The translations under genes and the position numbers were made by a program. The notes under the pieces are model-generated. The model was given only the letters and a program-made list of their open reading frames with translations. It was not told the origin of the DNA and did not search any database. Of a stretch of 64,000 bases of DNA, positions 1-37,557 are shown one piece after another (the first letter of the stretch is position 1; every line of letters starts with the position of its first letter). The stretch is from Pseudomonas sp. HR96 (GTDB lineage: Bacteria > Pseudomonadota > Gammaproteobacteria > Pseudomonadales > Pseudomonadaceae): NCBI RefSeq assembly GCF_034059295.1, contig NZ_CP139141.1, positions 2,649,001-2,713,000 of the forward strand. Reading direction: 5' to 3'.

Positions 1-419
1 CGGAGTACATGCTGCCGGCGCTGTTCGTGACGCTGCCGAGCCTGCCCTTGAACGTCAACGGCAAGCTCGACCGCAAGGCCCTGCCGGCACCGCTGTGGCA
101 GGCCGCACCCGCCTTCCGCGCGCCGCACACGGCGGTGCAGGGCGAGATCGCCGAGATCTGGCGCGACCTGCTGGGCGCCGAGCGGGTCGGCCTGGACGAC
201 AATTTCTTCGCCCTCGGCGGCCATTCGTTGCTGGCGACCCAGGTGCTGGCGCGGATCAAGCGCCAGCTCGCCGTGGACCTGCCGCTGCGCGTGGTGTTTG
301 CCAGCGACAGCCTGCAGGACCTGGCCGCCGAGGTGCAGCGCACACTCGACAGCGCCGGCAGCGGCGATGACATCGACAGCATGAGTGCATTGTTGGCACA
401 ACTGGAGGCGCAAGCATGA
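1..419 (+). CDS. Non-ribosomal peptide synthetase, C-terminal end (5'-truncated by window)
   Basis: Only the last ~139 codons are present; the reading frame is open to the window edge, so the gene starts upstream. The piece holds the end of an adenylation domain, with the A10 motif [10 protein letters not shown] carrying the invariant Lys, and a complete peptidyl carrier domain with the phosphopantetheine site [15 protein letters not shown]. The GGHS form of the carrier motif is the usual form where no epimerization domain follows, and none does. The stop codon overlaps the start of the next NRPS gene as ATGA, so the two are translationally coupled and almost certainly consecutive on one assembly line. 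The substrate cannot be read because the A-domain pocket lies outside the window. Confidence 0.93.
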
Positions 420-3400
420 ACAACCCATCGCACGCCGCGTTGCGGCAGATCGCCGAGCGCCTCAATGCCTTGCCGGAACACCTGCAGGCGCAGTTTCTCG
501 AGCAACTGGCCGCACGCGGCATCGACTTCGGCCAACTGCCCATCGTGCCCGCGCCGCGCAGTGAGGCCTTGCCGCTGTCCTACGCGCAGCAACGCCTGTG
601 GTTCCTCTGGCAGCTGGACCCGCACGGCACGGCCTACCACATACCCTGCGCCCTGCGCCTGCGCGGGCACCTCGACCCGCAGGCGCTGAGCTGCGCGCTG
701 AACACCGTGGTGGCCCGCCATGCGGCGTTGCGCAGCCGCTTTCCCAGCATCGACGGCCAGGCCCGCCAGGTCATCGAGCCGCCTGCCGCGCTGGCGATCG
801 AACAGCTGGATCTGGGCGAGGTCGCCGCCGCCCAGCGCGAGGCCCATGCCCGGGCACTGATCGAGCTGCGCAGCCGGCAGACCTTCGACCTGGAGCGCGG
901 CCCGTTGCTGCGAGTGTGCCTGATGCGCCTGGCCGACGACGACCATGTGCTGCTGCTGACCCTGCACCATATCGTCGCCGACGGCTGGTCGCTGAACCTG
1001 CTGGTGGCCGAGTTCACCGAGCTGTACCGCGCGTTGCTGCAGGACTGCCAGGCGCACCTGGGCGACCTGCCGATCCAGTACCACGACTACAGCCAATGGC
1101 AGCAGCGGCTGCTGGCGGCCGGCGAGCGCGAGCGGCAACTGCGCTGGTGGCGAGAGCAGCTGGGGGGCGAGCAGCCGCTGCTCGACCTGCCGCTGGATCA
1201 TCCGCGCCCGCGCCAGCCCGGCGGACGTGGCGCCAGCCTGCAGCTGGAACTCTCGCCACGGCTCGGCGAGGACCTGCAGCAGCTGGCGCGCAGCCAGGGC
1301 GCGAGCCTCTTCCATGTGCTGCTGGCCGCCTTCCAGGTGCTGCTGTACCGCCACAGCGGGCAGCGCGACGTGCGCGTCGGCGTGCCGGTGGCCAACCGCA
1401 ACCGCGCCGAAACCCGCGACCTGATCGGCCTGTTCGTCAACACCCAGGTACTGCGCAGCCGGCTCGAGGGCCAGCAGCCGTTCAGCGAACTGCTGCAGTC
1501 GCTGCGTGACACCGCGCTGGCCGCGCAGGACCATCAGGATCTGCCCTTCGAGGTGCTGGTCGATGCCCTGGCGCCCGAGCGCGATGTCAGCCGCACGCCG
1601 CTGTTCCAGGTGATGTTCAACCATCAGCAGCGGGCCTTCGGCGCCCTGGCGCAGTTGCCCGGGCTGCACGCCGAGGTTTTCGCCCAGCCGCCACGCAGCG
1701 CCCGGTTCGATCTGTGCCTGGACACCGAGCAGAGCCCCGACGGCAGTTTGCAGGCCACCTTGACCTACGACTGCGACCTGTTCACCGCGCCGCGCATCCG
1801 CGCCCTGGGCGAGCAGTACATCAGCCTGCTCGCGCAGTTGTGCCGCGCGCCGCAGACCTGCCTGGACGCTTTTACCCTGCTGGACCCGGCCCAGCGCCAG
1901 GCGGTGCTGGCCAGCGGTCGCCGTGCGCCGCGCCCGGTGGCCGACGCGCCGCTGCACCGGCTGTTCGAAGCCCAGGTGCGGCGCAGCCCCGACGCAGCGG
2001 CCGTGAGCGGCGCCGGCGAGCGTCTGACCTATGCCCAGCTCAACGCCCGGGCCAACCGCCTGGCGCACCACCTGCGCGGCCTCGGCGTGGGCGCCGACAG
2101 CCTGCTGGGTGTGGCCTTGCCACGCACGCCGAACCTGCTGGTGGCCCTGCTCGGGGTGCTCAAGGCGGGCGCTGCCTATGTGCCGCTCGACCCGCAATAC
2201 CCGGCCCAGCGCCTGCAACTGATGCTCGCCGACAGCGGTGCGCGCTGGCTGCTGACCGAGCCGGCGCTGGCCGAACAATGGGCCGGTACGACCGCGCAGC
2301 TGCTGTGCCTGGAGTCACTGATCGCGGGTGAGGGCGACGGCCTGAACGAGGACGATCTGGCCGCTGACGGGCACGATGGCCACGCCGCACAACTGGCCTA
2401 CTGCATCTACACCTCCGGCTCCACCGGCACCCCCAAAGGCGTGGCGGTGGCCCATGGCGCAGTGGTCAATTTTCTCGCCAGCATGGCCAGCGCCCCCGGC
2501 ATCGGCGCCGGCGACAAGGTGCTCGGCCTGACCTCGCTGTCCTTCGATATCGCCGTGCTGGAGCTGTACCTGCCGCTGCTGGCCGGGGCCCAGGTGGTGC
2601 TGGTCGACCGCGATCAGGCGCGCGATCCCCAGGCCTTGTCCGACGTCATCGAAAGCGCCGGCGTGACCCTGGTGCAGGCCACGCCTTCTACCTGGCGGCT
2701 GCTGCTCGACGGCGGTCGGCCGCAGGTGCTGCGCGGGCGGACCCTGCTGTCCGGCGGCGAGCCGCTGGCGGCCGACCTGGCCCAGCGCCTGCTGGCGCTG
2801 TCGCCGAGCCTGTGGAACCTCTATGGCCCCACCGAAACCACGGTCTGGTCGGCGCAGTGGCGGCTGACCCCGGCGGCGCCGACGCCGCTGCTCGGCCGGC
2901 CGCTGGACAACACTCAGCTGTACGTCCTCGACGAGCAGCTGGAGCCGGTGCCCCATGGCGTGGCTGGCGAGCTGTACATCGGCGGCGCCGGGCTGGCGCG
3001 CGGCTACTGGCGGCGCCCGGGCCTCAGCGCCGAGCGCTTCGTCGCCGACCCGTTCGGCGCTCCCGGCGCACGCCTGTACCGCAGCGGCGACCTGGCGCGC
3101 TTCGACGCCAATGGCGTGCTGGTGTACCTGGGCCGCATCGACCAGCAGGTCAAGCTGCGCGGGCACCGCATCGAGCCTGGCGAAGTCGAGGCGCGGCTGC
3201 TCGAATGCGCTGGGGTGCGTGAAGCCGCCGTGGTGGTGCGCGGCACGCCCCAGGGCGAGCAGCTGGTTGCCTATCTAGTCGGCCCGGCGCCTGGAGCTTG
3301 GCCGCAACTGGCGGCGCACCTGGGCGCGCATCTGCCGGCGCACATGCTGCCGACCCAGGCGGCCATGCTCGCAGCCTTGCCGCGCACACCCAATGGCAAG

Positions 3401-6400
3401 CTCGACCGCAAGGCCCTGCCGGCGCCCGTCGCACTGATGCCCGAAGAAAGTTTCCAGGCGCCGCGCGGTGCCGCCGAACAGGCCCTGGCGCAGATCTGGC
3501 AGGCCTTGCTGGGCGCCGAGCGGATAGGGCGCGAGGACAGTTTCTTCGCCCTGGGTGGCGACTCGGTCGGCTCGATCCAGATGGTCAGCCGCGCGCGCAG
3601 TGCCGGCTGGCTGATCGAGCCGCGCCAGGTGTTCCAGGCGCCGCAGCTGGCCGCCCTGGCTGCGCTGGCACTGCCGGTGCAGACGCCGCCGACCACTGCG
3701 CTGGCGCCGTTCGCCCTCGCCGGGCTGACCGATAGCGAGCGCGAGGCGCTGGACCTCGGCCGTTTCGAAGATGCCTACCCGCTGTCGCCGCTGCAGCATG
3801 GGCTGCTGTTCCATGCCCGCCAGTCAGGCGCCGATGACGTCTATGTCAACCAGCTGCGGCTGGACGTCGAGGGGCTCGACGAAGGGCGCTTCGGCGCCGC
3901 CTGGCAGGCGCTGATGGACCATCATCCGGGCCTGCGTGTGCAACTGGACTTCGCCCGCGAGCAGCCGCTGCAATGGATTCACCGGCGCCTGCACGTACCG
4001 ATCACGGTGCTGGAGGGGCGCGCCGCGCACACGTTGGATGAACTCGCCAGGCAGGACCGCCAGCGCGGCTTCGACCTGGCCGCCGCGCCCTTGTGGCGCC
4101 TGACCCTGGTGCGCCTGGGGGGCGGGCGGCACCACCTGATCTACACCTGCCACCACCTGCTGCTCGATGGCTGGAGCACCGCGCAACTGCTGGGGGATGT
4201 GCTGCGTCACTATGGTGATCAGGAGCATGGCCATCAGGAGCATGCCGGTGAGGAGCTGCCCAGCCTTGCCGCGCTGGCTCATCCGCGCCAGTTCCACGCC
4301 TGGCTGCAGGGCCTCGATGAGCAGGCTGCGCAGGGCTTCTGGCGCCAGCAGTTGCAGGGTCTGGAGCAACCGACGCGGTTGGCCGACGTGCTGCCGGCAC
4401 CTGCCCAGCCGCCGGCCGTGGGCGCCGAGCAGGGCCGCTGCACCTTGCGCCTGGACCGCGCCGACACGGCACGCCTGAATGCGTTCGCCGGGCAACTGGA
4501 GGTGACCTTGAACACCCTGGTGCAGGGCGCCTGGGCGTTGCTGCTGCAGCGCCTGAGCGGCCAGGCCACGGTGGCCTTCGGCACCACCGTGGCGGGCCGG
4601 CCGGCGCACCTGCCGGGCATCGAGCAGCAACTGGGGCTGTTCATCAATACCTTGCCGGTGGTCTGCGCACCGTCGCCCCAGGCCAGCGTGGCCCAGTGGC
4701 TGCAGGCGGTACAGGGCCAGGCCCTGGCCATGCGCGAGCACCAGCACACGCCGCTGGCGCAGATCCAGCAATGGGCCGGTGGCCGTGGTGCAGGCGCCGA
4801 TGGCGCGCTGTTCGACAACCTGCTGGTGTTCGAGAACTACCCCCTGAGCACCGCGCTGGAGCACGGCCGCCGTGCCGGCCTGAGCTTTGGCGAAGTGCTG
4901 AGCGACGAGCGCACGCATTACCCCTGGACCTTGATCGTGGTGCCCGGTGAGCAACTGACGTTCAGCGCCCGTTACGCACCCGAGGCTTTCAGCCAGGCGT
5001 CGGCCGAGACTCTGCTGGCCGCGCTGCAACAGCTGCTGCTGGGCCTGGTCGAAAGTGCCGGGCAGGCTCTGGGCAACCTGCCGTTGCTCGACCGCGCGGC
5101 CCTGGCGCAGCAGGTCCAGGGCTGGAACCGCGACAGCGACCTGCCGCTGGCGCTGACCCTGCACCAGCGTTTCGAGCGCCAGGCCCAGGCCAATGCCGAC
5201 GCCGTGGCGGTCATCGACGGCCAGCAGCGCCTGACCTATGGCGAGCTCAACGCCCGCGCCAACCGCCTCGCGCATCGTCTGCGTGCCCGTGGTGTGGGGC
5301 CCGGCAGCCGGGTGGGGGTGGCGCTGGCGCGCACCCTCGCGCTGCCGGTCGGCCTGCTGGCGATTCTCAAGGCCGGTGCCACTTATGTGCCGCTGGACCC
5401 GGCCTATCCCGCCGTGCGCCTGGGCTACATGCTGCGCGACAGCCAGGCGGCCTGGCTGCTGGCCGATGCCGGCCTGGCCCTGGAGGTGCCAGCGGGCGTG
5501 GCGTTGCAGAGCATGGCCGAGGACCTGCAAGACTGGCCGGCGCACGACCCGCAGCCGCTGGCGACACCCGCTGACCTTGCCTATGTGATCTACACCTCCG
5601 GCTCCACCGGCCAACCCAAGGGCGTGGCCATCACCCACGCCAGCGCCAGCGCGCTGGTGCAGTGGTCGCTGGCCAGCTTTGCCAGCGAGGACCTGAGCGC
5701 GGTGCTCGGGGCGACTTCGGTGTGCTTCGACCTGTCGGTGTGGGAGTTCTTCGTGACCCTGTCGGCCGGTGGCACGCTGCTGCTGGCCGAGAACGCACTG
5801 GCCTTGGCGACGCTGCCGGCGCGCGAGCAGGTGCGCCTGATCAACACGGTACCTTCGGCCATCGCGGCACTGTTGCACAACGGCCAGATTCCGCGCAGCG
5901 TGCGGGTCATCAACCTGGCCGGCGAGGCCTTGCAGCAGAGCCTGGTCGACCGGCTCTACGCGCTCGGCCACGTGCAGGCGGTCAACGACCTGTACGGGCC
6001 CTCCGAGGACACCACCTATTCCACCTGGAGCCGGCGCACGCCGGGCGGGCGCGGCAATATCGGCCGGCCCCTGAGCTGGACCCGCAGCTACGTGCTCGAC
6101 GCCACGCTGCAGCCATTGCCCCTGGGGGTGGCCGGCGAGCTGTACCTGGGTGGGGCCAAGCTGGCCCAGGGCTACCTGGGCCGCAGCGGGCTGACCGCCG
6201 AGCGATTCATCGCCAGCCCCTTCGTGCCCGGCGAGCGCCTGTACCGCACCGGCGATCTGGTGCGCTACACCGCCGAGGGCGTGCTGGAGTACGTCGGCCG
6301 CCTCGATCATCAGGTGAAGATCCGTGGCTTTCGCATCGAGCTGGGCGAGATCGAGGCGTCTCTGCTGGCGCATCCCCAGGTGCGCGAAGCGGCGGTGCTG

Positions 6401-6889
6401 GCCCGCGAGGCCGGCTTGATCGCCTACGTGGCCGGCGTTGCCGAGGTAGCGCAGCTGCAGGCACATCTGCGGGCGCGCTTGCCGGCGCATATGGTGCCTG
6501 GTGAGTGGGTGCTGCTGGCGCGCCTGCCGCAGACGCCCAACGGCAAACTCGACCGCCACGCCCTGCCTGCCCCGGCGCCACGCGCGCATCGCTACCAGGC
6601 GCCCAGCGGTGCATTGCAGACGCAGCTGGTAGCCATCTGGGAGGACCTGCTGGAGGTCGAGCGGGTCGGGGTCGACGACGACTTCTTCGAACTGGGCGGC
6701 CACTCCCTGCTCGCCACCCGGCTGCTGTCACGCCTGCAGCGCGAGTTGCAGGTGCAACTGAGCCTGGCCGAGGTCTTCGGCTGCCACACGGTGCTGGCCC
6801 TGGCTGCCCTCATCGAACGGCGCCAGGCGCCGGTGGACGCGCAGAGGATGAGCCGGCTGGAGGATTTGATGGCGCAGTTGGAGGAGTGA
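416..6889 (+). CDS. Two-module NRPS (C-A-PCP-C-A-PCP), predicted Gly then Ala
   Basis: 2157 residues. Domain order read from motifs: LCL-type condensation ([12 protein letters not shown] at ~53, HHIVADGWS at ~184); adenylation with [10 protein letters not shown] at ~665; carrier [10 protein letters not shown] at ~1041; second condensation of DCL type ([13 protein letters not shown] at ~1121, HHLLLDGWS at ~1246); adenylation with [10 protein letters not shown] at ~1727; carrier [10 protein letters not shown] at ~2088. Aligning the pockets to GrsA by eye gives DILQLGLVWK for the first A domain, close to known Gly codes, and DLWNNALTYK for the second, close to the Ala code DLFNNALTYK. These assignments are inference. 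No epimerization domain lies between the first carrier and the DCL condensation domain, which is unusual. The start overlaps the previous stop (ATGA). Confidence 0.93.
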
Positions 6890-6916
6890 GGGTTGGGGTT
6901 CGGTGGTGGGGCCCCT

Positions 6917-7490
6917 ATGCGCCCGGCGGGAGGTTCAATATGGCCACCACCGGCCGCCCGCGCGGCCTATCGCCAGCTTCGCCGGCTCCTACATTTGCTT
7001 CGAATGTGCCGTTCCAGACAGACCACCTATGACCGCCCCGAACATCAAAGGCGGTCATAGGAGATGTCACTGGATGCATATAACTCGAAACAGATGTAGG
7101 AGCCGGCGCAGCTGGCGAGAGGCCGCGCGGGCGGCCGCTGGTGGCCCTATTGGACATTTCGCCGGGCGCCCGAAGATCAAACCGGCCTGACGGCCTCTCG
7201 GGGCTTTGCCCCTCCCACGTCTGCCTGAAATGCAATCACGGCCACCACCGGCCGCCCGCGCGGCCTATCGCCAGCTTCGCCGGCTCCTACATTTGCTTCG
7301 AACGTGCCGTTCCAGACAGACCACCTATGACCGCCTTGGTGCTTGGCGGTCTATCGTCGAACATCAAAGGCGGTCATAGGAGATGCCATTGGATGCACAT
7401 AAATCGAAACAGATGTAGGAGCCGGCGAAGCTGGCGATAGGCCGCGCGGGCGGCCGATGGTGGCCATATTGAACCTCCCGCCAGGCGCAT
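6917..7490. repeat. Nested REP-like inverted repeats filling the inter-NRPS gap
   Basis: The 737 bases between the two NRPS genes (6890-7626) carry four copies of one unit in alternating orientation: 6917-7003 (+), 7085-7146 (-), 7240-7301 (+) and 7404-7490 (-). The outer pair are 87-base inverted arms with about four mismatches. Each unit includes a GC-rich core (CCGCCCGCGCGGCC) followed by CGCCAGCTTCGCCGGCTCCTACA or a close variant, as in Pseudomonas REP elements. The internal spacers are also similar, including an inverted TATGACCGCC / GGCGGTCATA pair, so a REP doublet seems to have been duplicated in tandem. No gene was found here. The only other signals are a TCGGGGC...GCCCC stem near 7198 and a candidate promoter near 7528. 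Confidence 0.85.
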
Positions 7491-7527
7491 GGCGGCCCTA
7501 CCGTATCCCCGCCAAACACCCCCCCGT

Positions 7528-7551
7528 TAAAGATCCCCCCACCCCCTTCGT
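7528..7551 (+). promoter_or_regulatory. Candidate iron-starvation (PvdS-type) promoter, variant
   Basis: TAAAG (7528-7532), a 16-base spacer, then CGT (7549-7551). The PvdS consensus is TAAAT-N16/17-CGT, so the fifth base of the -35 element is off consensus. It lies about 75 bases before the start codon of the giant NRPS and downstream of the repeat block, where an independent promoter would be expected because the repeats should hinder readthrough. Weaker than the two exact matches at 33852-33875 and 33944-33967. Confidence 0.45.
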
Positions 7552-7626
7552 CAACCTTGATGAACCACAGCCTCGCAACAGGCTGTCAGTCGATCAATAC
7601 GGCGCTCGCTGGAGCGCGGCGATGGG

Positions 7627-25078
<17,452 letters not shown>

Positions 25079-25095
<17 letters not shown>

Positions 25096-26023: not shown

Positions 26024-26100
26024 GTTCATGCCACCGGCCTTGCGGCCTCTCGGGGGCTGCGCCCCCTCCCACATCGGGTTGCGGTGGCGGTTTCAGCGCC

Positions 26101-26145
26101 CATGAAAAAGCCCGAGCCGGGGTCACCGGCTCGGGCTTTTTCATG
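26101..26145. terminator. Bidirectional intrinsic terminator
   Basis: Perfect 20-base inverted repeat (arms 26101-26120 and 26126-26145) with a 5-base loop GGTCA. The stem has a GCCCGAGCCGG core flanked by A5 on the left and T5 on the right, so it works in both directions. It sits between the convergent hydrolase (+) and TonB receptor (-) genes and should end both transcripts. Confidence 0.93.
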
Positions 26146-26157
26146 GGCAGGGCTCGA

Positions 26158-28374: not shown

Positions 28375-28403
28375 AACCGTTTATCCTTAACAGAGGTAGT
28401 AGT

Positions 28404-28432
28404 GCGAGTGATTCGCAATTGTAATTGTATTG
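28404..28432 (-). promoter_or_regulatory. Possible Fur site upstream of the TonB receptor
   Basis: AT-rich island in a GC-rich background. Read on the minus strand it has two ACAATT hexamers followed by GCGAATCACT, resembling Fur hexamer arrays (NAT(A/T)AT). The match to the 19-base consensus is weak; the position, 30-60 bases before the start codon, is what supports it. Confidence 0.35.
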
Positions 28433-28474
28433 TCGGGAACTTACCGAGGAATTATTTCCTCTGATACAAATTTT

Positions 28475-29224
28475 TCACCTGCGCCTCGGGGCCTTGAGCA
28501 GGGGACAGTCCACGCAATGCGGTAACGGCTCCAGGCAATAGCGCAGGCAGCACACCCGGCGCCAGCCTTGGCCGTCCAGCTGCTGGGGGAACTGGTAGGC
28601 ACGTTGCACGGGGTTGAGCCAGCCATCGGGGTAGGCGGGCTGGCTAAACAGTTGCAAGGCTTGCTGCAGGCTGGCCAATGGCAGCCCGAGGCGCTCGGCC
28701 AGAAGGCGCATCGCCCAGGCCAGGTAGGCCGCAACGTTGCCCCACAAGGCTCGCGCCGAGAGCCGGGCATGGCGCGCCAGCTGCTCGACGAAGGGCTGCA
28801 GGTTGCCGTGCAGCAGCGCCTGGCAGCGGCCGTAGAGGTCGCTGCCGGCGGGTAGCCGTTGGCTGGCTGCGCCGAGCAGCAGGGTAGAGACGCTGCCGTC
28901 TTCATCCAGCCGCAGGGCGACGTTGTCCAGCGCCAGCGGCAGCTGCCGGTCGAGCAGCAGGCAGGCCAGCAGCGCGCCGGGCAACAGGGCTTCCAGATAG
29001 CTCTTGGACCAGTGCGAGAGCAGGGCGCGACGGTCGGCGCCGGGGTACTCGCGGGCATGGCCGGCGACGATGGTATCCAGGGTCGCCGGGGCCCACAGCT
29101 GCTGGCCACGGATGGCCGCCTGGCCCTGATCGAGGGCCAGCGATTGCAGTGGCGCCAGCTGCGCCGCCGCGAAGCGTCGGTCGAGTTCGGCGAGGACTGC
29201 CGCCGTCGACGCGCCGCCGCTCAC
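28475..29224 (-). CDS. FhuF-like 2Fe-2S siderophore ferric reductase
   Basis: 249 residues, starting at a GTG that overlaps the permease stop as GTGA (29221-29224). The C terminus carries the FhuF cysteine signature C-C-x10-C-x2-C (VCCLRYCLEPLPHCVDC), which binds the 2Fe-2S cluster. FhuF reduces cytoplasmic ferric hydroxamates to release iron. Its presence with a FhuB-type permease indicates that the ferric complex enters the cytoplasm and that the siderophore is probably a hydroxamate. Last gene of the exporter-binding protein-permease-reductase operon. An apparent 373-residue longer frame is rejected because it runs back into the permease gene. Confidence 0.88.
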   Translation of the reverse strand: MSGGASTAAVLAELDRRFAAAQLAPLQSLALDQGQAAIRGQQLWAPATLDTIVAGHAREYPGADRRALLSHWSKSYLEALLPGALLACLLLDRQLPLALDNVALRLDEDGSVSTLLLGAASQRLPAGSDLYGRCQALLHGNLQPFVEQLARHARLSARALWGNVAAYLAWAMRLLAERLGLPLASLQQALQLFSQPAYPDGWLNPVQRAYQFPQQLDGQGWRRVCCLRYCLEPLPHCVDCPLLKAPRRR

Positions 29225-31236
29225 GCCGCGTTCCTGCGCAGCAGCCACATGAAATACGGGCAGCCGATGGCCGTGGCGACCAGCCCGGCCGGGATCTGGA
29301 AGGGGTAGATCAGGTTGCGCCCCAGCCAGTCGGCCAGCACCATCAACAGCGCGCCGATCAGTACCGCGCCGGCCAACTGGGGTCCGGGTCGGCGCAAGCC
29401 GAGCAGGCGCGCCATGTGCGGCGCCATCAGACCGACGAAGCTCAAAGGCCCGACCACCAGGGTGGCGGCCGCGCTGAGCAGGGCGATCAACAGCAGCAGT
29501 GCAGTGCGCGCCGGCCGCACCGCCAGCCCCAGCGCCTGGGCCTGGGGGGCGCCCAGCTGGAGCAGGCCCAGCCAGCGCAGCGACAGCGGCAGACACGCCA
29601 GCAGCACGGCCATGCTCGCCAGGGCGAACAGCGCCTCGTGGCCGGAGACCTGATAGGTCGAGCCCGCCAGCCAGGCCAGCAGCCCGCCCATGCGCGGATC
29701 ACCCACGGCCATCAGCACCGCCACCAGCACGCCGAACAGCGTGCTCAGGGCGATCCCGGCGAGGATCAGGCGTTCGGCTGCCAGCGCCGAGCGCCGCTCC
29801 AGGGCCAGCAAGCCGAGCAGCACCGCCATGGCCCCCAGGGCGCCGGCCAGCAGTTGCTCGCTGCGGGTCGCGGCGCTGACGACAAAGGCCAGCACCACCA
29901 CGCCGAAGGCGGCTCCGGAGCTGACGCCGATGATTTCCGGGCTGGCCATGGGGTTGTGGGTCAGGCGCTGGACCAGGCAGCCGGCGCCCGCCAGCATGGC
30001 GCCGGCGGCCAGCGCGGCAGCGATGCGCGGCGCGCGCAGGGCCTGCAGGGAAGCCTCGAGGCTCACATGCCAGCCGTCGGGCCCCTGGCCCAGTGTCAGC
30101 GCGCCGAGCACGGCCAGCAGCAGGGCCAGCAGGCAGCCGAGCAGCAACAGGTTGCCCTGCAGGGCACTGAGCGCATGCTTGAGGCCCGCGGGTGCAGCGT
30201 TGGGGCCGCCGGGACGCAGGCGCGGCAGCAGCCAGACCAGCAGCGGCACGCCGAGCAGGGCGGTGGCGGTGCCGGTGGGCACCTCGTGGTAGCCGGCGGG
30301 AATGCGCACCACCAGGCTGTCGGCCAGCCACAGCAGGGCGGCGCCGAGCAGCGTGGCCCAGAGCATGCGGGGCACGAAGCGCCGCGCGCCCATCAGCCGC
30401 GCCAGGTTGGGCGCGGCCAGGCCGATGAAGCCGATCACCCCGACGCTGGCCACGGTGATCGCCGCCAGGCCGACGCAGAGCACCAGCGCCACCGCGCGCA
30501 GTGCGCCCGGCGAGCCGCCAAGGCTGCGGGCGTTGTCGTCGTTGAGTTCGAACAGGCTCAGCGCCCGCGACAGCGGGCGGATCAGCGCGACGAAGATCAG
30601 CAGCGCGGGTAACAGCAGCAGCACTGCCGACCAGTCGTTCTGGCCCAGGTTGCCGCTGCTCCACATGAACATGCCGCGCAAGAAGCTGTGGTTGAACAGG
30701 ATCAGCACGTTGGCGAAGGCGTCGCAGCACAGGCTCACCACCAGCCCCGCGAGGATCAACGCCAGGGGCGAGAAGCCGCGCCCGGCGGCCAGGCCGAACA
30801 CCAGCCCGGCCGCCAGCAGCGCGCCGATCAGCGCCGGCCAGACCGGACCGTGCAACATCAGCGCCGGCGCATGGAGCGTGGCGGCGGTCACCGCCAATTG
30901 CGCGCCGGCGCTAATGCCCAGGGTGGTCGGCTCGGCCAGCGGGTTGCGCAGGACCTGCTGCAGCACGCAGCCGACCAGGCCCAGCGCCGCGCCACAGAGC
31001 AGCGCCACCGCCAGGCGTGGCAGCGAGCTGTAATGCACGATCAGCTGGCGCATGTCGTGGGTATCGGGGGCCCAGAGCGTGGCCCCCAGGGGCGCGCCGC
31101 CCAGCTGCTGGCGCAGCGTGGCCAGGCTCAGCAGCAACGCCAGCAGGGCGAGCAGGCCGACCACCCAGGCCACCAGCGGCACCCGCAGGCGGTCGCGTTG
31201 CCCAGGATAGCGGTCGCTCAAGGGACGTTCAGCCAT
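29221..31236 (-). CDS. FhuB-like fused double permease, ferric-siderophore ABC importer
   Basis: 671 residues, twice the length of a single FecCD permease, as in FhuB. Two homologous halves are visible. The first has CGAALGLVGCVLQQVLRNPLAEPTTLGIS at ~82 and the second AGAMLAGAGCLVQRLTHNPMASPEIIGVS at ~410, both being the conserved NP(L/M)A-P--(L/I)G(I/V)S loop that contacts the ATPase. About 20 hydrophobic segments. Inner-membrane channel for the ferric siderophore; partners are the binding protein at 31229 (8-base overlap) and probably the ATPase at 36737. Confidence 0.92.
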   Translation of the reverse strand: MAERPLSDRYPGQRDRLRVPLVAWVVGLLALLALLLSLATLRQQLGGAPLGATLWAPDTHDMRQLIVHYSSLPRLAVALLCGAALGLVGCVLQQVLRNPLAEPTTLGISAGAQLAVTAATLHAPALMLHGPVWPALIGALLAAGLVFGLAAGRGFSPLALILAGLVVSLCCDAFANVLILFNHSFLRGMFMWSSGNLGQNDWSAVLLLLPALLIFVALIRPLSRALSLFELNDDNARSLGGSPGALRAVALVLCVGLAAITVASVGVIGFIGLAAPNLARLMGARRFVPRMLWATLLGAALLWLADSLVVRIPAGYHEVPTGTATALLGVPLLVWLLPRLRPGGPNAAPAGLKHALSALQGNLLLLGCLLALLLAVLGALTLGQGPDGWHVSLEASLQALRAPRIAAALAAGAMLAGAGCLVQRLTHNPMASPEIIGVSSGAAFGVVVLAFVVSAATRSEQLLAGALGAMAVLLGLLALERRSALAAERLILAGIALSTLFGVLVAVLMAVGDPRMGGLLAWLAGSTYQVSGHEALFALASMAVLLACLPLSLRWLGLLQLGAPQAQALGLAVRPARTALLLLIALLSAAATLVVGPLSFVGLMAPHMARLLGLRRPGPQLAGAVLIGALLMVLADWLGRNLIYPFQIPAGLVATAIGCPYFMWLLRRNAA

Positions 31237-32128
31237 GCTCGGCCTGCATCAGGTGGGATGACAGAAGCTCGGCGAAGCTCACCGCCGAAGGCATGGCGCC
31301 GTAGAACAGCACTTCCGGCAGCTTGATCGCCTGCTGCCGGCGTACGCTGGGCAGGTTGCGCCACAGCGGGTTGTCGGCCAGGCGCTGCTCCAGCCCGGGG
31401 GTGGCATTGAAGTACACCAGGCGCGCCTCGGGTTGCTCGGCCAGCTGTTCGAAGCCGATGGTGGCAAAGCCCCAGCCATTGGTCTGGCCCACCCAGGCAT
31501 TGCGCTGCCCCAGGCGTTGCAACACGTCATCGAACAGGCTGTTGCGGCCAAAGACCATGGCCCGGCGCTCGTCGATCACGCTGATGACCTGCAGAGCGGC
31601 CGGCGCAAGCGCCAGGCAGCGCTGGCGGGCCTCGGCCAGGCTCGCCCAGGCGTGCGCCAGGTAGCGCTGCGCCGCCTCGCTGCGGCCGATGCGGTGGGCC
31701 ACTGCGAGGGTCAGGCGCGCGACCTGCTCGCAGGGGCTGCCCTGGTCATCGGTCTCGAACACCTCGCTGGCGGCGATGCTCGCCAGCCGGTCCTGCAGCA
31801 CCGCCTGGTCGCTGCCGAGCAGGATCAGCTCGGGCTGCAGCTCCTGCAGCAATTCAAGATTGGGCTCCGAGCGCAGGCCCAGTTCCAGCACGCTGGCGGG
31901 CAGTTGCGGTTCGCGCACGCTGCTGCGGTACAGCGCGTTCTCCGCCGTCGCCGCCGGGGTCAGGCCGAGCGCCAGCAGGGTCTGCACCAGGCCCCAGTCC
32001 AGCGCCGCCACCTGGCTCAGCGGGGCCTGGGCGGCGCTGGCCTGGGCGCGCGGCAACAGCAGCAGGGCGGCCAGGCCGATCAGGCAACGGCGCCGCACCT
32101 GGCACACCTGCCCGGGCGCTCGGTTCAT
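31229..32128 (-). CDS. FhuD-like periplasmic siderophore-binding protein
   Basis: 299 residues from the ATG that overlaps the exporter stop (ATGA, 32125-32128). The N terminus VRRRCLIGLAALLLLPRAQA has a twin-arginine-like RRRCLIG followed by a hydrophobic core, a plausible Tat signal like that of FhuD. The mature part is a class III binding protein (PF01497 type): LGLRSEPNLELLQELQPELIL near the N-lobe, then TIGFEQLAEQPEARLVYF and NPLWRNLPSVRRQQAIKLPEVLFYGAMPSA. It should deliver the ferric hydroxamate to the FhuB-like permease. A longer apparent start is out because it would lie within the exporter gene. Confidence 0.9.
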   Translation of the reverse strand: MNRAPGQVCQVRRRCLIGLAALLLLPRAQASAAQAPLSQVAALDWGLVQTLLALGLTPAATAENALYRSSVREPQLPASVLELGLRSEPNLELLQELQPELILLGSDQAVLQDRLASIAASEVFETDDQGSPCEQVARLTLAVAHRIGRSEAAQRYLAHAWASLAEARQRCLALAPAALQVISVIDERRAMVFGRNSLFDDVLQRLGQRNAWVGQTNGWGFATIGFEQLAEQPEARLVYFNATPGLEQRLADNPLWRNLPSVRRQQAIKLPEVLFYGAMPSAVSFAELLSSHLMQAEHG

Positions 32129-33774
32129 GCCGGCGCGAACTCGCTGACCCGTTGCCCGGCCGCCAGGCGCAGCAGCTGGTCGGCGCAGTCGAAATAGCGA
32201 TCGTCGTGGGAGATGACGATGATGGTCTTGCCCAGCGCCTTGAGGCTGGGCAGCAGGTCGGCGTAGAAGATGCCGCGAAAGGTCGGGTCCTGGTCGGCGG
32301 CCCACTCGTCGAACACCAGCACCGGGCGGCCTTCGGTCCAGGCCTGCAGCAGCGCCAGGCGCTTGCGTTGGCCGGTAGAGAGGTCGGTGGTGGAAAAGTT
32401 GTTGTCCTTGAGGCTGACCTTGTGGCCAATCTCCAGGCGCTCGAGGTACTGGACCGCGTCCTCGGGCACGCTGTCGCCGTCCTGGATCAGGTCATCGAAC
32501 AGGAAATAGTCGGAAAAGATGGTGGTGAACAGCTGCCGGTAGTCATCGCGGTTCTGCGCGCTCACCGGCTCGCCGTTGAGCAGCACCTGCCCTTGTTGCG
32601 GCTCGTACAGGCCCAGCAACAGCTTGATCAGGGTGGTCTTGCCACAGCCGTTCTCGCCGACGATGAAGAGAATTTCGCCCGGGCGGATGCTCAGGTCCAG
32701 GGGGCCGACGGCGAAGGGTGGGTTGCCGTCCACGGCCGGGTAGGCGTAGCGCACCCCGCGCAGCTCCAGCGAATGCAGCGGCGCCGGGGGCTGCTTGGGT
32801 TCATCGTCAAGCAGATGGGGTTCGGGCGAGGCGAACTGGGCGGACAGCTCGGCGATCCGGCGGAACGCCACCTGGGCTCGGCTGACCACCGGCAGGTTGC
32901 CGATCACGCTTTCCAGCGGCCCTTTCATGTACAGCAGCACCAAAATGAAGCCGCTCAAGGTGGCCTTGTCGGTGCTCGGCCACAGGCTCTGGAAGAACAG
33001 CGCAACGCCGATGACGATGAAGAACAGGGTCGAGCCGAAGCCCTTGGCGATGACGAACAGGTTGATCGAGCTGATCTGGATGGCGCAGATGCGCTCGATG
33101 GTGGCCTGCATCTTGCGGTTGTACAGGCGCAGCCGGCGCGGGCGGTTGATGCGCAGTTCCTTGGCGCCTTCGGCGATGGCGCGGTAATGCTTCTGCAGTT
33201 CGTCCTCGTGCTCGCGGGCGTCGAAGAAACCGTTGATGCCACGGTTGCGCGCCAGGTACTGGATGATGCTGCCGATAATGATGGCCACCGCCGTGGTGAG
33301 GAACATGGTCCATGACAGCCACGCCATGTAGCCCAGGCAGCCGAAGGTCACGCTCAGCGAGACCGCCAGGGGCGAGAAAGCGAAGGCGAAGTCGCTGATG
33401 GTGTCCACGTCATGGGTCAGCACCGGGATCAGGCGGTGGCTGCGGTAGCGCTCCAGCTGCTCGATGGGCGCTGAAAGAATCCGCGTGCCGAGGTCCTTGC
33501 GCAGGCGCGCGATGACGTGCTGGCCGACATGGTTGGTGCCGATGTCGGAGAGGATCGAGCCCAGCAGCGCCAGGGCGCACAGCGCGGCGAACGCCAGCAG
33601 CAGGGTGCGCGAGGTGTCCCCGTCAGCGTGCAGGCTGTGGTTGATGGTGGCCAGCAGCGCGGTGATGCCCAGCCCCCCGAGCACGCCCAGCACGATCGAC
33701 ACGCAGAGGATCAGGCGAAAGGGCCGCAGCAACTGCAACAGCGCGCCGAGCGAGCTTCTTGGTGGAGTCTGCAT
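32125..33774 (-). CDS. Cyclic-peptide/siderophore exporter, PvdE/SyrD-family ABC transporter
   Basis: 549 residues from the ATG at 33774 with AAGGA 7 bases upstream. N-terminal half with about six transmembrane segments (residues ~15-290) fused to an ATPase domain: Walker A GENGCGKTT at ~370, signature LSTGQRKR at ~470, Walker B VLVFDEWAADQDP at ~490, and the H-loop ISHDD. The DEWAADQDP box and overall length are characteristic of PvdE, which moves the peptide precursor from cytoplasm to periplasm. First gene of a five-gene minus-strand block with overlapping junctions through fhuF; driven by an exact TAAAT-N16-CGT promoter. Confidence 0.93.
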   Translation of the reverse strand: MQTPPRSSLGALLQLLRPFRLILCVSIVLGVLGGLGITALLATINHSLHADGDTSRTLLLAFAALCALALLGSILSDIGTNHVGQHVIARLRKDLGTRILSAPIEQLERYRSHRLIPVLTHDVDTISDFAFAFSPLAVSLSVTFGCLGYMAWLSWTMFLTTAVAIIIGSIIQYLARNRGINGFFDAREHEDELQKHYRAIAEGAKELRINRPRRLRLYNRKMQATIERICAIQISSINLFVIAKGFGSTLFFIVIGVALFFQSLWPSTDKATLSGFILVLLYMKGPLESVIGNLPVVSRAQVAFRRIAELSAQFASPEPHLLDDEPKQPPAPLHSLELRGVRYAYPAVDGNPPFAVGPLDLSIRPGEILFIVGENGCGKTTLIKLLLGLYEPQQGQVLLNGEPVSAQNRDDYRQLFTTIFSDYFLFDDLIQDGDSVPEDAVQYLERLEIGHKVSLKDNNFSTTDLSTGQRKRLALLQAWTEGRPVLVFDEWAADQDPTFRGIFYADLLPSLKALGKTIIVISHDDRYFDCADQLLRLAAGQRVSEFAPA

Positions 33775-33851
33775 CAATCATTCCTTCACTGGACAAGAGC
33801 GTACGAGGCGGCCCGCGCGGTTTGCAGGCGCTGCGTCGTGTGTCCTTGTAA

Positions 33852-33875
33852 ACGACTGGCGTGGCAACGGATTTA
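33852..33875 (-). promoter_or_regulatory. PvdS-type iron-starvation promoter of the exporter operon
   Basis: On the minus strand: TAAAT (complement of 33871-33875), 16 bases, CGT (complement of 33852-33854). The -35 continues as TAAATCC, as in known IS boxes. It lies about 78 bases before the exporter start. Exact match to the PvdS consensus TAAAT-N16/17-CGT. Confidence 0.78.
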
Positions 33876-33902
33876 GTCGCGGCGCCGCTGGGTTGCAATG
33901 GT

Positions 33903-33927
33903 AACGAGAATTTCTAGTATTCGCATT
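33903..33927. promoter_or_regulatory. Fur-like half-sites between divergent promoters
   Basis: AACGAGAAT (33903-33911) and ATTCGCATT (33919-33927) form an inverted pair resembling Fur half-sites AATGAGAAT/ATTCTCATT, but with a 7-base rather than 1-base spacer. They sit between the two iron-starvation promoters, so Fur could repress both, if functional. Confidence 0.4.
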
Positions 33928-33943
33928 ATTTACCCTTCAGCGC

Positions 33944-33967
33944 TAAATCTGCCTCACTGCGTCTCGT
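33944..33967 (+). promoter_or_regulatory. PvdS-type iron-starvation promoter of pvdA
   Basis: TAAAT (33944-33948), 16 bases, CGT (33965-33967): exact consensus for PvdS-type ECF sigma factors, about 90 bases before the pvdA start. Together with the minus-strand copy at 33852-33875 it makes a divergent pair in a 284-base intergenic region, which is very unlikely by chance in this GC-rich DNA. Confidence 0.8.
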
Positions 33968-34058
33968 CACCCTTGTGAATTTGGCCATGAACCTGGACTG
34001 CCAAGGGAGCGGGTCGGCCAAACCCCTTAATGGCTTGTTACATCAAGAGGTGTGCGAG

Positions 34059-35396
34059 ATGACACAACCGATGAGCGTCGCTTCGGCGGCATATGACCTG
34101 CTGGGCATCGGCTTCGGCCCGTCCAACCTGGCCTTGGCGATAGCCCTGGAAGAGTTCGGCCAGCAGCGTGGCCAGCCGCTGCGCTCATTGTTCATCGACC
34201 GCCAGGCCGACTACCGCTGGCACGGCAACACCCTGGTGGCGCAGAGCGAATTGCAGATTTCCTTCCTCAAGGACCTGGTGACCCTGCGCAACCCCACCAG
34301 CCCCTTCAGCTTCGTCAATTACCTGCAATCCCAAGGCCGCCTGGCCGACTTCATCAACCTGGGTACCTTCTATCCCTGCCGCATGGAGTACAACGACTAC
34401 CTGCGCTGGGTGGCCGGGCATTTCAAAGAGCAGAGCCGCTACGGCGAGCAGGTGTTGCGCGTCGAGCCGGTGCTCAACGGCGGGCGACCGATCGAGCGCC
34501 TGCAGGTCATCTCGCGCGACGCCGAGGGCCGTGAACATGCACGCCAGACCCACGCGCTGGCCTTGAGCACGGGCGGCACGCCAAAGATCCCGGCGGTGTT
34601 CCAGGGCCTGCGTGACCACCCGCGGGTGTTCCACCATGCCCAATACCTGCAGAGCATGGCCGGCCTGCCGTGTGGCCAGGGCCAGGCGATGCGCATCGCC
34701 GTGGTCGGCGGCGGGCAGAGCGCCGCCGAGGCGTTCATCGACCTCAATGACAGCTACCCCTCGGCCCAGGTCGACCTGATCCTGCGCGCGGCGGTGCTCA
34801 AGCCGGCCGACGACAGCCCGTTCGTCAACGAGATTTTTTCGCCGGAGTACACCGACCTGGTGTTCAACCAGCCCGAGGCCGAGCGCGACCGGCTGATCAA
34901 CGAGTACCACAACACCAACTATTCGGTGGTGGACCTGGACCTGATCGAACGCATCTACGGCATCTTCTACCGCCAGAAGGTCTCACGGCAGATGCGCCAC
35001 GGCTTCCTGTGCCGCCGGCGCATCGAGGCCGCCCGCGCCGACAATGGCCAGATCGAGCTGCGCCTGAACGACAACGCCACCGGCGCCGTCGAGAGCCATC
35101 GCTACGACGCGGTGATCCTCGCCACCGGCTACGAGCGCTCCTCGCACAAGCAATTGCTCGAGCCCCTGAGCGAGTACCTCGGCGACTTCGTTGCCGGGCG
35201 CGATTACCGCCTGGCCGCCGACCCGCGGTTGCAGGCGCCGATCTTCCTCCAGGGTTTCTGCCAGGCCAGCCACGGTTTGAGTGATACCCTGTTGTCGGTG
35301 CTCCCGGCCCGCGCCGGCGAGATCGCCGAAGCCTTGTTCCAGTTGCCGCAGACCCGCCGCGCCAAGTCCCTCGCCGCCGTGGCCGTGGGCGTCTGA
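34059..35396 (+). CDS. pvdA: L-ornithine N5-monooxygenase
   Basis: 445 residues from ATG 34059, chosen because AGAGG lies 8 bases upstream and the protein then begins MTQ like P. aeruginosa PvdA (443 aa); a GTG at 33975 also opens the frame. FAD site GIGFGPSNLALAIAL at ~16, NADPH site VVGGGQSAAEAFIDLNDSYP at ~210, the substrate-site stretch QISFLKDLVTLRNPTSP, and the C-terminal ATGYE motif. PvdA hydroxylates the ornithine side-chain amine using NADPH and O2, the first step to hydroxamate ligands, and is the key evidence for a hydroxamate siderophore. No formyl- or acetyl-transferase that would finish the hydroxamate is in the window. Preceded by an exact PvdS-type promoter. Confidence 0.97.
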   Translation: MTQPMSVASAAYDLLGIGFGPSNLALAIALEEFGQQRGQPLRSLFIDRQADYRWHGNTLVAQSELQISFLKDLVTLRNPTSPFSFVNYLQSQGRLADFINLGTFYPCRMEYNDYLRWVAGHFKEQSRYGEQVLRVEPVLNGGRPIERLQVISRDAEGREHARQTHALALSTGGTPKIPAVFQGLRDHPRVFHHAQYLQSMAGLPCGQGQAMRIAVVGGGQSAAEAFIDLNDSYPSAQVDLILRAAVLKPADDSPFVNEIFSPEYTDLVFNQPEAERDRLINEYHNTNYSVVDLDLIERIYGIFYRQKVSRQMRHGFLCRRRIEAARADNGQIELRLNDNATGAVESHRYDAVILATGYERSSHKQLLEPLSEYLGDFVAGRDYRLAADPRLQAPIFLQGFCQASHGLSDTLLSVLPARAGEIAEALFQLPQTRRAKSLAAVAVGV

Positions 35397-35407
35397 TGGG
35401 AGCGTGC

Positions 35408-36673
35408 ATGTCTGATCGAAGGTGTTTTCGCGGCGTCAGGTGGTCGCTGACCTGGCTGTTCTGCCTGCTGCCCGCCTGGGCTCAGGCGGCGCAGCCGGGC
35501 GAGGTGATCGACAGCCAGGTGTTGAAAACCTTCAGTGCGCAGGCCATGAACGCAGGCCTGGGTGACCAGCGCAGCTACATCGGTGCGGCGCGCTGCGATG
35601 TGCAACTGGTGGACCTGACCTACGCCACCCGCGGGGTGCATGGCGAGCCGGCGACGGCCTCGGCCATGCTGCTGTTGCCCGAGGGCGAACACTGCGCCGG
35701 GCCATACCCCTTGCTCGGCTGGGCACGCGGCACCGATACCCAGCGCAGTTCGGAGCAGGCCCAGGCACTGCTGGCCAGCGGCGACAGCGCCTTGCTGGCG
35801 TTCTTCGCCGCCCAGGGCTACGCCGTGGTGGCCACGGACTATCTGGGGCTGGGACGCTCGGATTATCGCTTTCATCCCTACCTGCACGCCGACTCCGAAG
35901 CCAGCGCGATCATCGATTCGATGCGCGCGGCCCGGCACCTGAGTGCAACCCTTGGCCATCCGTTGTCGGGCAAGGTGCTGCTGGCCGGTTATTCCCAGGG
36001 CGGGCATGCGGCGATGGCGGCGCAGCGGGCGATGGAGCGCGACGACGCCGGCGAATTCGACCTGGTCGCCAGCGCGCCGATGTCCGGGCCCTATGCCCTG
36101 TCGCAGACCTTCCGCGACAGCTGGTCCGGGACCACCGCGGCCGGCGCCAATGCCCTGGCACCGTACCTGCTGGCCTACGCGCTGGCGGGCATGCAGGGGG
36201 TGTACGGCGACATCTACCAGCACCCCGACCAGGTGTTCCGCCCGCCCTGGGCCGCGTTGCTGGACAGCGATTTCCCTGGCCCGGCCAATCTCTTCGACCT
36301 GCTCCATCGCCAGGCCTTGCCGGCGGTCACGCAGATCGAGCAACTGCGCCAACCGGCCTTCACCCGGGCGTTTATCGACGACCCGCAGAACCCGTTCCGC
36401 CAGGCCCTGGCGCGCAACGACCTGCTGGACTGGACGCCACGCACGCCGACCCTGCTGTGCGGTTCGCAACGCGACGGCGTGGTGGCCTACGCCAACAGCC
36501 AGGCCGCCGCAGCCGCATTCACCGCGCGGCATGCCCCGGTCAAGCTGCTGGATGTCAGCGCCCAGATCCCGGCCGACGTCGACGGCGTGCACGTGCACAC
36601 CAGCGCGACCGCCTACCTGTGCCTGGGCGCGGTGCGCACGCAGCTGTTCGAACCGGCGCTGGGATTGCGCTGA
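35408..36673 (+). CDS. Secreted alpha/beta hydrolase, secretory-lipase-like
   Basis: 421 residues from ATG 35408, preceded by GGGAG at 5 bases; an in-frame ATG at 35396 overlapping the pvdA stop would add four residues. Signal peptide WSLTWLFCLLPAWAQA, so exported. Fold signs: TDYLGLGRSDYRFHPY, nucleophile motif GYSQGGHAAMAAQ at ~190, LCGSQRDGVV (acid) and a C-terminal VHVHTSATAYL (His). This looks like the fungal/bacterial secretory lipase (LIP) family. It follows pvdA directly and must share its transcript, so it may act in the periplasm on the siderophore, by analogy with PvdQ deacylation though from a different family. That role is inference. Confidence 0.85.
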   Translation: MSDRRCFRGVRWSLTWLFCLLPAWAQAAQPGEVIDSQVLKTFSAQAMNAGLGDQRSYIGAARCDVQLVDLTYATRGVHGEPATASAMLLLPEGEHCAGPYPLLGWARGTDTQRSSEQAQALLASGDSALLAFFAAQGYAVVATDYLGLGRSDYRFHPYLHADSEASAIIDSMRAARHLSATLGHPLSGKVLLAGYSQGGHAAMAAQRAMERDDAGEFDLVASAPMSGPYALSQTFRDSWSGTTAAGANALAPYLLAYALAGMQGVYGDIYQHPDQVFRPPWAALLDSDFPGPANLFDLLHRQALPAVTQIEQLRQPAFTRAFIDDPQNPFRQALARNDLLDWTPRTPTLLCGSQRDGVVAYANSQAAAAAFTARHAPVKLLDVSAQIPADVDGVHVHTSATAYLCLGAVRTQLFEPALGLR

Positions 36674-36736
36674 TTGCGAGCAGTGCGGGCGGGGCACAGG
36701 CCGGTTTGATCTTGGTAGGAAACCCCAGATCGCAGT

Positions 36737-37510
36737 CTAGAAATGAAAACTCAGCGGGCTGCCATCCACCGGATGCGGCAGTACGCCCATGGCGATGCCG
36801 TAGATGGCTTGCAGGGTAGGGCTGTCGATGATCTCGGCCGGGGCGCCCTGGGTCAGCAGGCGGCCGCTGTGCAGCGCCACCAGATGATCGCAATAACGGC
36901 CGGCCATGTTGATCTCGTGCAGCACCACGATCACCCCCAGCCCCAACTCATGACTGAGCTGGCGCACCAGCGCGAGCACCTCGACCTGGTGGGCGATGTC
37001 CAGTGCCGAAGTCGGCTCGTCGAGCAGCAGGTAGCGACTGTTCTGCGCCAGCAGCATGGCCAGCCAGACGCGCTGGCGCTCGCCGCCGGACAACTCGTCG
37101 ACCCGCTGCCCGGCATAGCCGGACGTGGCGGTCAGCTCCAGGGCGCGATCGACCTGGGCGTGGTCCTCGCGGCCGAAGCGGCCAAAGGCCCCGTGCCAAG
37201 GATAGCGCCCCAGCCCCACCAGTTCGCGTACGGTCAGCTCGTCGGCCGGCGGCGGGTTCTGCGGCAGGTAGGCGACCTGGCGGGCAAAGTCCCGCGCACT
37301 CCAGCGCTGCAGCGGTACGCCGTCCAGGTGCAGCTGGCCGCTGCTGGGGGCGTGCTGGCGCGCCAGCAGCTTGATCAATGTCGACTTGCCCGACCCGTTG
37401 TGGCCGATCAGGCCGGTGATGCGCCCGTGCTGCAGTTGCAGGTCCAGGGGCTGCAGGAGCTGGCGTTCGGCAACGCTGAAGGTCACGGCTTGAAGGTCGA
37501 ACATAGGCAT
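36737..37510 (-). CDS. FhuC/FecE-like ATPase of a ferric-siderophore ABC importer
   Basis: 257 residues. Walker A GHNGSGKST at ~36, Q-loop YLPQNPPPADELTVRELVGLGRYPW, signature LSGGERQR at ~138, Walker B YLLLDEPTSALD and the H-loop VLHEINMA. The GRYPW and LHE.NMA details are typical of iron-siderophore importers. The permease operon lacks its own ATPase, so this is the likely partner although it sits on the other side of pvdA. It converges on the lipase-like gene, and its upstream region holds a good Fur-box candidate. Confidence 0.93.
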   Translation of the reverse strand: MPMFDLQAVTFSVAERQLLQPLDLQLQHGRITGLIGHNGSGKSTLIKLLARQHAPSSGQLHLDGVPLQRWSARDFARQVAYLPQNPPPADELTVRELVGLGRYPWHGAFGRFGREDHAQVDRALELTATSGYAGQRVDELSGGERQRVWLAMLLAQNSRYLLLDEPTSALDIAHQVEVLALVRQLSHELGLGVIVVLHEINMAGRYCDHLVALHSGRLLTQGAPAEIIDSPTLQAIYGIAMGVLPHPVDGSPLSFHF

Positions 37511-37538: not shown

Positions 37539-37557
37539 AATGCTTATGATTCTTATT
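37539..37557 (-). promoter_or_regulatory. Candidate Fur box upstream of the ATPase gene
   Basis: AATAAGAATCATAAGCATT on the minus strand resembles the Pseudomonas Fur consensus AATGAGAATCATTCTCATT in most positions. It lies about 30 bases before the ATPase start codon, in the -10/-35 zone. Confidence 0.6.

Follow-up and report, generated by a model that had tools for sequence, protein, structure and literature searches.

Gene content of the locus

A stretch of 64,000 nucleotides from Pseudomonas sp. HR96 (bases 2649001–2713000 of contig C1, NZ_CP139141.1, in a genome of 5.87 Mb; hereafter the window) carries much of a nonribosomal peptide synthetase (NRPS) cluster that probably directs the synthesis of an amphiphilic siderophore with mixed β-hydroxyaspartate (βOHAsp) and hydroxamate ligands, along with candidate genes for its assembly, export, uptake and control. 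A sequence-only reading of the window had placed the left edge of the cluster at position 1 and expected further parts upstream; a further 39 kb fetched and annotated there (positions below 1) revealed that the cluster runs ~13 kb beyond the window's left edge, or ~20 kb counting accessory genes, and that the acyl-loading, Thr, Asp and Ser part of the assembly line lies in this extension. Because all 12 condensation-type domains located by a genome-wide search fall within −10487 to 22482, no other multimodular NRPS locus was found.

The assembly line is encoded by four genes built of condensation (C), adenylation (A), thiolation (T), epimerisation (E), methyltransferase (MT) and thioesterase (TE) domains: N1 (−12491 to −5949; FAAL-T-C-A-MT-T, where FAAL is a fatty acyl-AMP ligase); N2 (plus strand, from −5952, its 3′ end, the end of the Ser module, occupying 1–419 of the window), with C-A-T modules for Asp and Ser; N3 (416–6889, plus strand; C-A(Gly)-T-C-A(Ala)-T); and N4 (7627–25095, plus strand; 5822 amino acids), in which three C-A-T-E modules are followed by C-A-T-TE. 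The full line thus reads FAAL-T; C-A(Thr, MT)-T; Asp, Ser; Gly, Ala; and four C-A-T modules, three with E, ending in TE. The N4 modules, numbered 7 to 10, have approximate limits of 7774–12291, 12304–16746, 16759–21186 and 21199–25095 (all plus strand); E domains are found in modules 7–9, just where the sequence-only reading had put them in this giant NRPS, and module 10 lacks E and carries the thioesterase (GWSLG).

Among solved structures, the N terminus of N1 scores highest against the loading domains of two megasynthases (470 and 384 bits) and also matches the fatty acyl-AMP ligases FadD23, FadD28, FadD32 and 3pbk (232–310 bits). This domain precedes the first C domain, as in lipopeptide siderophore systems, and is predicted to load an acyl chain. 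The methyltransferase of N1 (residues 1528–2036) sits between a8-type and a10-type motifs.

The 737 bp between N3 and N4 are largely filled by a non-coding interspersed repeat element (6905–7502, plus strand) with two direct copies and nested inverted arms, ~60–100 bases. One 266-base query from it has 212 matches in the genome (both strands counted), and we do not regard the element as belonging to the siderophore pathway. The family also occurs, for example, at C1:4201715–4204205 and 2573208–2574214, in places as tandem arrays with ~320–450 base spacing; Rfam matches within the element were to microRNA families, far below gathering scores, and were taken as chance on inverted repeats. This multicopy element with its long arms could split transcription, which weighs against a working pathway, and no PvdS-type promoter site was found before N4; the cluster might then be silent or partly broken. 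We consider this unlikely: all four NRPS frames are open, with HHxxxDG, T and TE motifs present, and a related cluster in a metagenome-assembled genome (MAG NGEE_A_bin41) has a gap at the same place, of ~500 bp and mostly different sequence (one 102-base stretch is 72% alike). By eye, the MAG gap (L139:3110–3660) is also palindromic and repeat-like, though mostly unlike that of HR96; this intergenic site may thus be prone to acquire such elements.

Beyond N4, a minus-strand block (26158–33777) encodes five proteins: a FhuA-like TonB-dependent siderophore receptor (26158–28374), above the cut-off of TIGR01783 and with FhuA as its best model, below cut-off (588.6 versus 803); a FhuF-type siderophore-iron reductase (28475–29149, start codon uncertain; TIGR03951 at 131.9 bits, cut-off 63.85); a FhuB-like double FecCD permease (29221–31236); a FhuD-like periplasmic binding protein (31229–32128; FhuD model match below cut-off, 227.4 versus 252); and a PvdE-type ABC exporter (32125–33777), above the cut-off of TIGR01194. 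These are followed by a PvdA-type L-ornithine N5-monooxygenase (33975–35396, plus strand; likely start ATG 34059), an alpha/beta hydrolase of the LIP family (35396–36673, plus strand) with a GYSQG motif and a signal-like N terminus, and, as the last cluster gene, a FhuC-like ABC ATPase (36737–37510, minus strand), itself preceded by a weak Fur-box-like site (14/19; 37542–37560, minus strand). FhuB and FhuC were identified through Pfam only. Domain and profile matches therefore recover every component that the sequence-only reading had listed: NRPS genes ending in a TE, pvdA, exporter, receptor, importer and FhuF.

Upstream of N1, the order is a second TonB receptor (minus strand), HipA-like and helix-turn-helix genes, a TauD-family oxygenase (−20595 to −19585, plus strand; PF02668), an acetyltransferase of the Acetyltransf_8 family (−19565 to −18558, plus strand), a HlyD/RND pump of MexC/AcrB-like type (−18564 to −14278), a PvdS-like sigma gene (−14333 to −13785, minus strand), mbtH (−13501 to −13271) and a type II thioesterase gene (TEII; −13267 to −12551). 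The second receptor (−24098 to −21918), which adjoins the HipA-like and helix-turn-helix genes and whose best models, FauA and FhuE, match below their cut-offs, may serve another siderophore.

Adenylation codes and the predicted product

The nine code positions of A domains follow the GrsA convention, and by motif anchoring and alignment we read them in all nine A domains of the line. The first five codes, in module order, are DFWNVGMVH (Thr), DLTKIGHVG (Asp), DVWHFSLID (Ser), DILQLGLVW (Gly) and DLWNNALTY (Ala), the last two bearing out the Gly-Ala order proposed earlier. Modules 7 and 10 share DGEACGGVT, and modules 8 and 9 share DGEDHGTVV. A 2025 survey places DGEACGGVTK among the codes for modified ornithine, where it does not discriminate between the modifications, and assigns DGEDHGTVVK to Lys, noting its similarity to DGEDHGTVTK, a code for Orn (PMC12283262). 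In the pyoverdine system of P. syringae 1448a, a single-module NRPS with DGEDHGTV was assigned to the first side-chain Lys of a structure inferred from tandem mass spectrometry, and DLTKIGHV is tabulated there for an Asp proposed to be hydroxylated (PMC3207962). A third line of evidence comes from genome G121, where a related cluster has two DGEACGGVT codes and no DGEDHGTVV among the 10 codes read; as its PvdA (71% identical) is present, elimination makes DGEACGGVT the hydroxyornithine (OHOrn) code.

Together, the printed codes, the P. syringae Lys module and the elimination in G121 indicate that the four residues of N4 are most likely Orn-Lys-Lys-Orn, not the Lys-Orn-Orn-Lys of the sequence-only reading. 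Its order, with Lys at modules 7 and 10 and hydroxyornithine at 8 and 9, draws on the fact that Orn and Lys codes can be nearly alike (DGEDHGTVTK versus DGEDHGTVVK; PMC12283262), and one prediction tool called the P. syringae DGEDHGTV a Val/Leu-like substrate and not Lys (PMC3207962); set against the three lines above, we regard it as very unlikely. Four of the six residues named in that earlier tail thus change, and by the disagreement of A-domain predictions that it had itself named as its test the tail falls, while the description of the locus as uncharacterised stands.

Compared over 9169–10626 and 22531–23988, the A domains of modules 7 and 10 are identical at 480 of 486 residues and 1430 of 1458 bases, with a longest exact tract of 224, a pattern suggestive of a recent duplication or of gene conversion; those of modules 8 and 9 agree at 420 of 466 residues.

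Candidate enzymes for the predicted iron ligands accompany these modules. The PvdA-like protein matches solved L-ornithine 5-monooxygenases (best 3s5w, 642.7 bits) and is nearer to solved ornithine than to lysine hydroxylases; the acetyltransferase, which adjoins TauD, is the sole Acetyltransf_8 match in the genome. An ornithine N5-hydroxylase, an acyltransferase and OHOrn modules, the components of the hydroxamate class, are thus all present. Formyl in place of acetyl on OHOrn was considered and rejected: none of the genome's 5 formyltransferase-family matches lies in the cluster region, and the acetyltransferase is in the cluster. The Asp module and the TauD-type gene (PF02668) occur together, and Asp hydroxylation is predicted; they also answer the earlier expectation that a third iron ligand would come from upstream. 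Six donor atoms would be supplied by βOHAsp together with the pair of hydroxamates, and the corrected order places the two hydroxamates on either side of the D-Lys pair, for a prediction of exactly three bidentate ligands.

Our best prediction of the product is acyl-(Me)Thr-βOHAsp-Ser-Gly-Ala-D-acylOHOrn-D-Lys-D-Lys-OHOrn. If it bears acetyl-OHOrn, methyl-Thr and a cyclic OHOrn at its end, its calculated [M+H]+ is 1202.699 for a C12:0 chain and 1230.730 for C14:0 (28 Da apart), and the corresponding Fe adducts lie at 1255.611 and 1283.642. In the proposed pathway, the fatty acyl-AMP ligase would load an acyl chain, and nine modules would incorporate in turn Thr methylated on N or O, Asp, Ser, Gly, Ala, D-OHOrn, D-Lys, D-Lys and OHOrn; the Asp would be hydroxylated by TauD, PvdA and the Acetyltransf_8 enzyme would supply acyl-OHOrn, presumably including that of module 7, and the TE would release the terminal OHOrn of module 10, probably cyclised. 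The product would leave through the PvdE-like exporter, possibly also the RND pump, and return through the FhuA-like receptor and FhuBCD for cytoplasmic reduction of its iron by FhuF, with a PvdS-like sigma factor under Fur turning the genes on in iron starvation.

Several points weigh against this scheme: A codes predict a substrate and are not proof of it; DGEACGGVT does not tell the acyl group on hydroxyornithine; NCBIfam gives PvdA only a sub-threshold match, to a histamine N-monooxygenase model, and the acetyltransferase only sub-threshold aminoglycoside-acetyltransferase matches; the TauD matches, in solved structures and NCBIfam alike, name no Asp hydroxylase; no acetyltransferase was matched in the fetched parts of G121; and the methyl group on Thr could sit on N or O, since a8-a9 methyltransferases comprise both types, N being commoner in the tabulated set (PMC11355689).

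The fate of the acyl tail was considered separately. The acyl chain of pyoverdine is cut off in the periplasm by PvdQ. By analogy, the chain here might be only a biosynthetic handle, removed in the periplasm by the secreted LIP-family hydrolase to leave a plain peptide: the hydrolase has a signal-like N terminus and GYSQG, adjoins pvdA in two related clusters (L141 of Azospirillum, and G121) and shares its cluster with a PvdE-type exporter, and the only member of the penicillin amidase family found in the genome falls far short of the PvdQ cut-off (42.9 bits versus 950) and is not PvdQ. However, among solved structures the hydrolase is closest to esterases (3h2g group), not amidases, and potashchelin keeps its tail although its cluster holds a lipase, which its authors suggested supplies fatty acid (PMC7100376). 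Loss of the tail is thus doubtful, though its likelihood is not negligible, and we favour a siderophore that retains it. Relatives of the hydrolase are 73–78% identical in metagenome proteins and a Pseudomonas MAG, 59–62% in P. oryzihabitans and ~45–52% among Xanthomonas and Xylella lipases; within the genus it was matched in 2 of 398 genomes, this one and G121.

Related clusters and pyoverdine-type control

A search of a genome collection gave 77 matching loci, of which we studied six. Relatives of the MT region are found in the MAG (70% identity), four Azospirillum genomes (63–65%) and Peristeroidobacter (56%), and at the protein level in Pseudomonas sp. TE3610 (49%). The MAG cluster, spread over three contigs (L138–L140), has the same module order where sequenced (Thr-Asp / Ser-Gly-Ala-OHOrn / Lys-type); by eye, its third contig opens within an A domain of the Lys type, carries DGEDHGTVV and closes in an A domain like that of module 10. 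Its TauD (83%), acetyltransferase (68%), sigma factor (73%), MbtH (91%) and TEII (75%) resemble those of HR96, and the receptor, fhu genes, pvdA and hydrolase are not on the three fetched contigs. The Azospirillum clusters (L052–L055; longer stretches L141–L143 and L148) keep the MbtH-TEII-TauD-N1 order. L141 holds pvdA, the hydrolase (60%), acetyltransferase, receptor and fhu genes as well as mbtH, TEII and TauD, followed by N1; L143 shares the codes Thr-Asp-Ser but differs in the fourth, DAEDIGAIT; and in strain TSH64 the second code of N2 was unreadable. No PvdS-like gene was matched in the fetched parts of these incomplete assemblies.

Within the genus, the Thr-MT region was matched in 8 of 398 genomes at 1e-40, this genome included. 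The seven others carry other NRPS genes (MT region 31–39%, FAAL-like stretches at most 39%; 18 kb each). Over the same 18 kb at 1e-10, TauD, the acetyltransferase, the sigma factor, TEII and the receptor gave no match, MbtH and FhuC gave one weak match each, and two of the seven have a Thr code. The G121 cluster (C25; L144–L147) is longer, with codes for Thr, Asp, Asp, Ser, Gly, Gly, OHOrn, Ser, Gly and OHOrn; a single contig holds all 13 of its C-family domains, and G121 is not among the MT-region matches.

PvdS boxes have a consensus of the TAAAT-N16-CGT type. Across the 103 kb, CTAA[A/T]T-N16-CGT occurs three times, once per cluster operon: before mbtH, before pvdA (GCTAAAT-N16-CGT, 33942–33967, plus strand) and facing the exporter and importer genes (CTAAAT-N16-CGT, 33852–33876, minus strand). 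By comparison, 60 simulated sequences gave a mean of 0.15 sites and a maximum of 1. The site before mbtH has CATCCGT as its end, a feature in common with those of the MAG and of four pvdL-like loci, which were fetched out of the 44 same-genus genomes (58 searched) with a listed match to about residues 5–1580 of N1 and which we take to be pyoverdine loci. In all four, the sigma gene beside the pvdL-like gene is oriented like that of HR96 and its product is 63.5% identical, and the order is acetyltransferase (plus strand; ~60% identical to this cluster's), sigma (minus strand), site and assembly line (plus strand). The MAG keeps this same order, with TauD in front and no RND pump between acetyltransferase and sigma; in HR96 the pump intervenes. 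A Fur-box-like site (14/19) precedes the sigma gene.

The pairing of a PvdS-like extracytoplasmic function (ECF) sigma gene with TAAAT-N16-CGT-type sites suggests that the cluster is under pyoverdine-type (PvdS) control. Speaking against such control, the T alternative in the pattern was set after a TAATT site before mbtH had been seen by eye, strict TAAAT giving two sites; the NCBIfam model matched by the sigma factor is not named PvdS; the Fur scan also matched away from cluster promoters (49923, 39876); no PvdS-type site lies before the mbtH of G121; and single PvdS-type matches occur elsewhere (L138 6096, L145 4185, L141 2023).

Could the cluster then be a pyoverdine locus? It has a PvdS-like sigma, a PvdE-like exporter and PvdA, and the first part of N1 is ~50% identical to pvdL-like proteins. 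The chromophore modules of PvdL, however, take Tyr and Dab, and none of the nine codes is for either; because all 12 C-family domains found in the genome lie in this cluster, no PvdL chromophore modules are expected outside it. A pyoverdine is therefore exceedingly improbable, and the earlier description of a hydroxamate peptide siderophore distinct from pyoverdine holds, no pyoverdine assembly line having been found in the genome. HR96 apparently makes a lipopeptide siderophore in place of the usual pyoverdine.

Since gene order and orientation in the MAG equal those of all four pvdL-like loci, we tentatively propose, at somewhat less than even confidence, that one siderophore was exchanged for another at the locus of pyoverdine control. 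The block of acetyltransferase, PvdS gene and promoter would have been kept, and a methyl-Thr lipopeptide line that Azospirillum also has would have taken the place of the assembly line behind it. The outcome would be a Pseudomonas free of pyoverdine whose siderophore is new, has nine residues with a pair of lysines and partitions into membranes.

Comparison with known lipopeptide siderophores

Marinobactin, potashchelin, lactuchelin and formomarinobactin share an acyl start, βOHAsp and hydroxyornithine, according to the portions of the reports drawn on here (PMC12904278, PMC13037486, PMC7100376). Lactuchelin, from Pseudomonas lactucae, is like the predicted product an acyl-peptide with βOHAsp and OHOrn, and its genes include an Asp hydroxylase, an acetyltransferase, an ABC exporter, FhuBCD and FhuF; pvdS and mbtH lie outside its cluster, and its domain legend has no methyltransferase (PMC12904278). 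It consists of seven residues, among them two OHAsp and one Orn, whereas HR96 has nine modules with one Asp code and two OHOrn codes. Its producers lack a pyoverdine cluster, and insertion in pvdS abolished siderophore production (PMC12904278), so that a PvdS-controlled lipopeptide other than pyoverdine has already been published.

The formomarinobactin and marinobactin clusters of the pyoverdine-negative P. lutea group resemble this one in their FAAL start, in-cluster ECF sigma gene, ABC transporter, hydroxylase, TauD, MbtH and FhuF; they differ in specifying six residues, Asp-Dab-Ser-OHOrn-Ser-OHOrn, with PvdF formylation in formomarinobactin (PMC13037486). The HR96 line has nine A domains in place of six, its second code is Asp and none is Dab, and it is thus not of the marinobactin type. 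Potashchelin, from Halomonas sp. MG34, is also made by a FAAL and nine modules, with βOHAsp and a terminal cyclic OHOrn, and its cluster likewise holds MbtH, TEII, lipase, monooxygenase and acyltransferase genes; its sequence, OHAsp-Ser-Gly-Ser-Ser-OHAsp-Thr-Ser-cOHOrn, is different, and no methyltransferase is noted in the part of the report drawn on (PMC7100376).

A described siderophore with the predicted residue order was not found in the open-access literature, which is not proof of absence, and the supplement of an eLife 2026 survey of metallophore clusters, seen here in part, may hold this family (PMC12971057). The class itself is already known; its apparently new features are the order of its residues, its start with methyl-Thr, its two adjacent Lys residues and its shared promoter block. 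The locus thus adds a predicted structure to the small number of lipopeptide siderophores that apparently stand in for pyoverdine in Pseudomonas, and its promoters and the order of its genes suggest that the PvdS switch can be uncoupled from pyoverdine.

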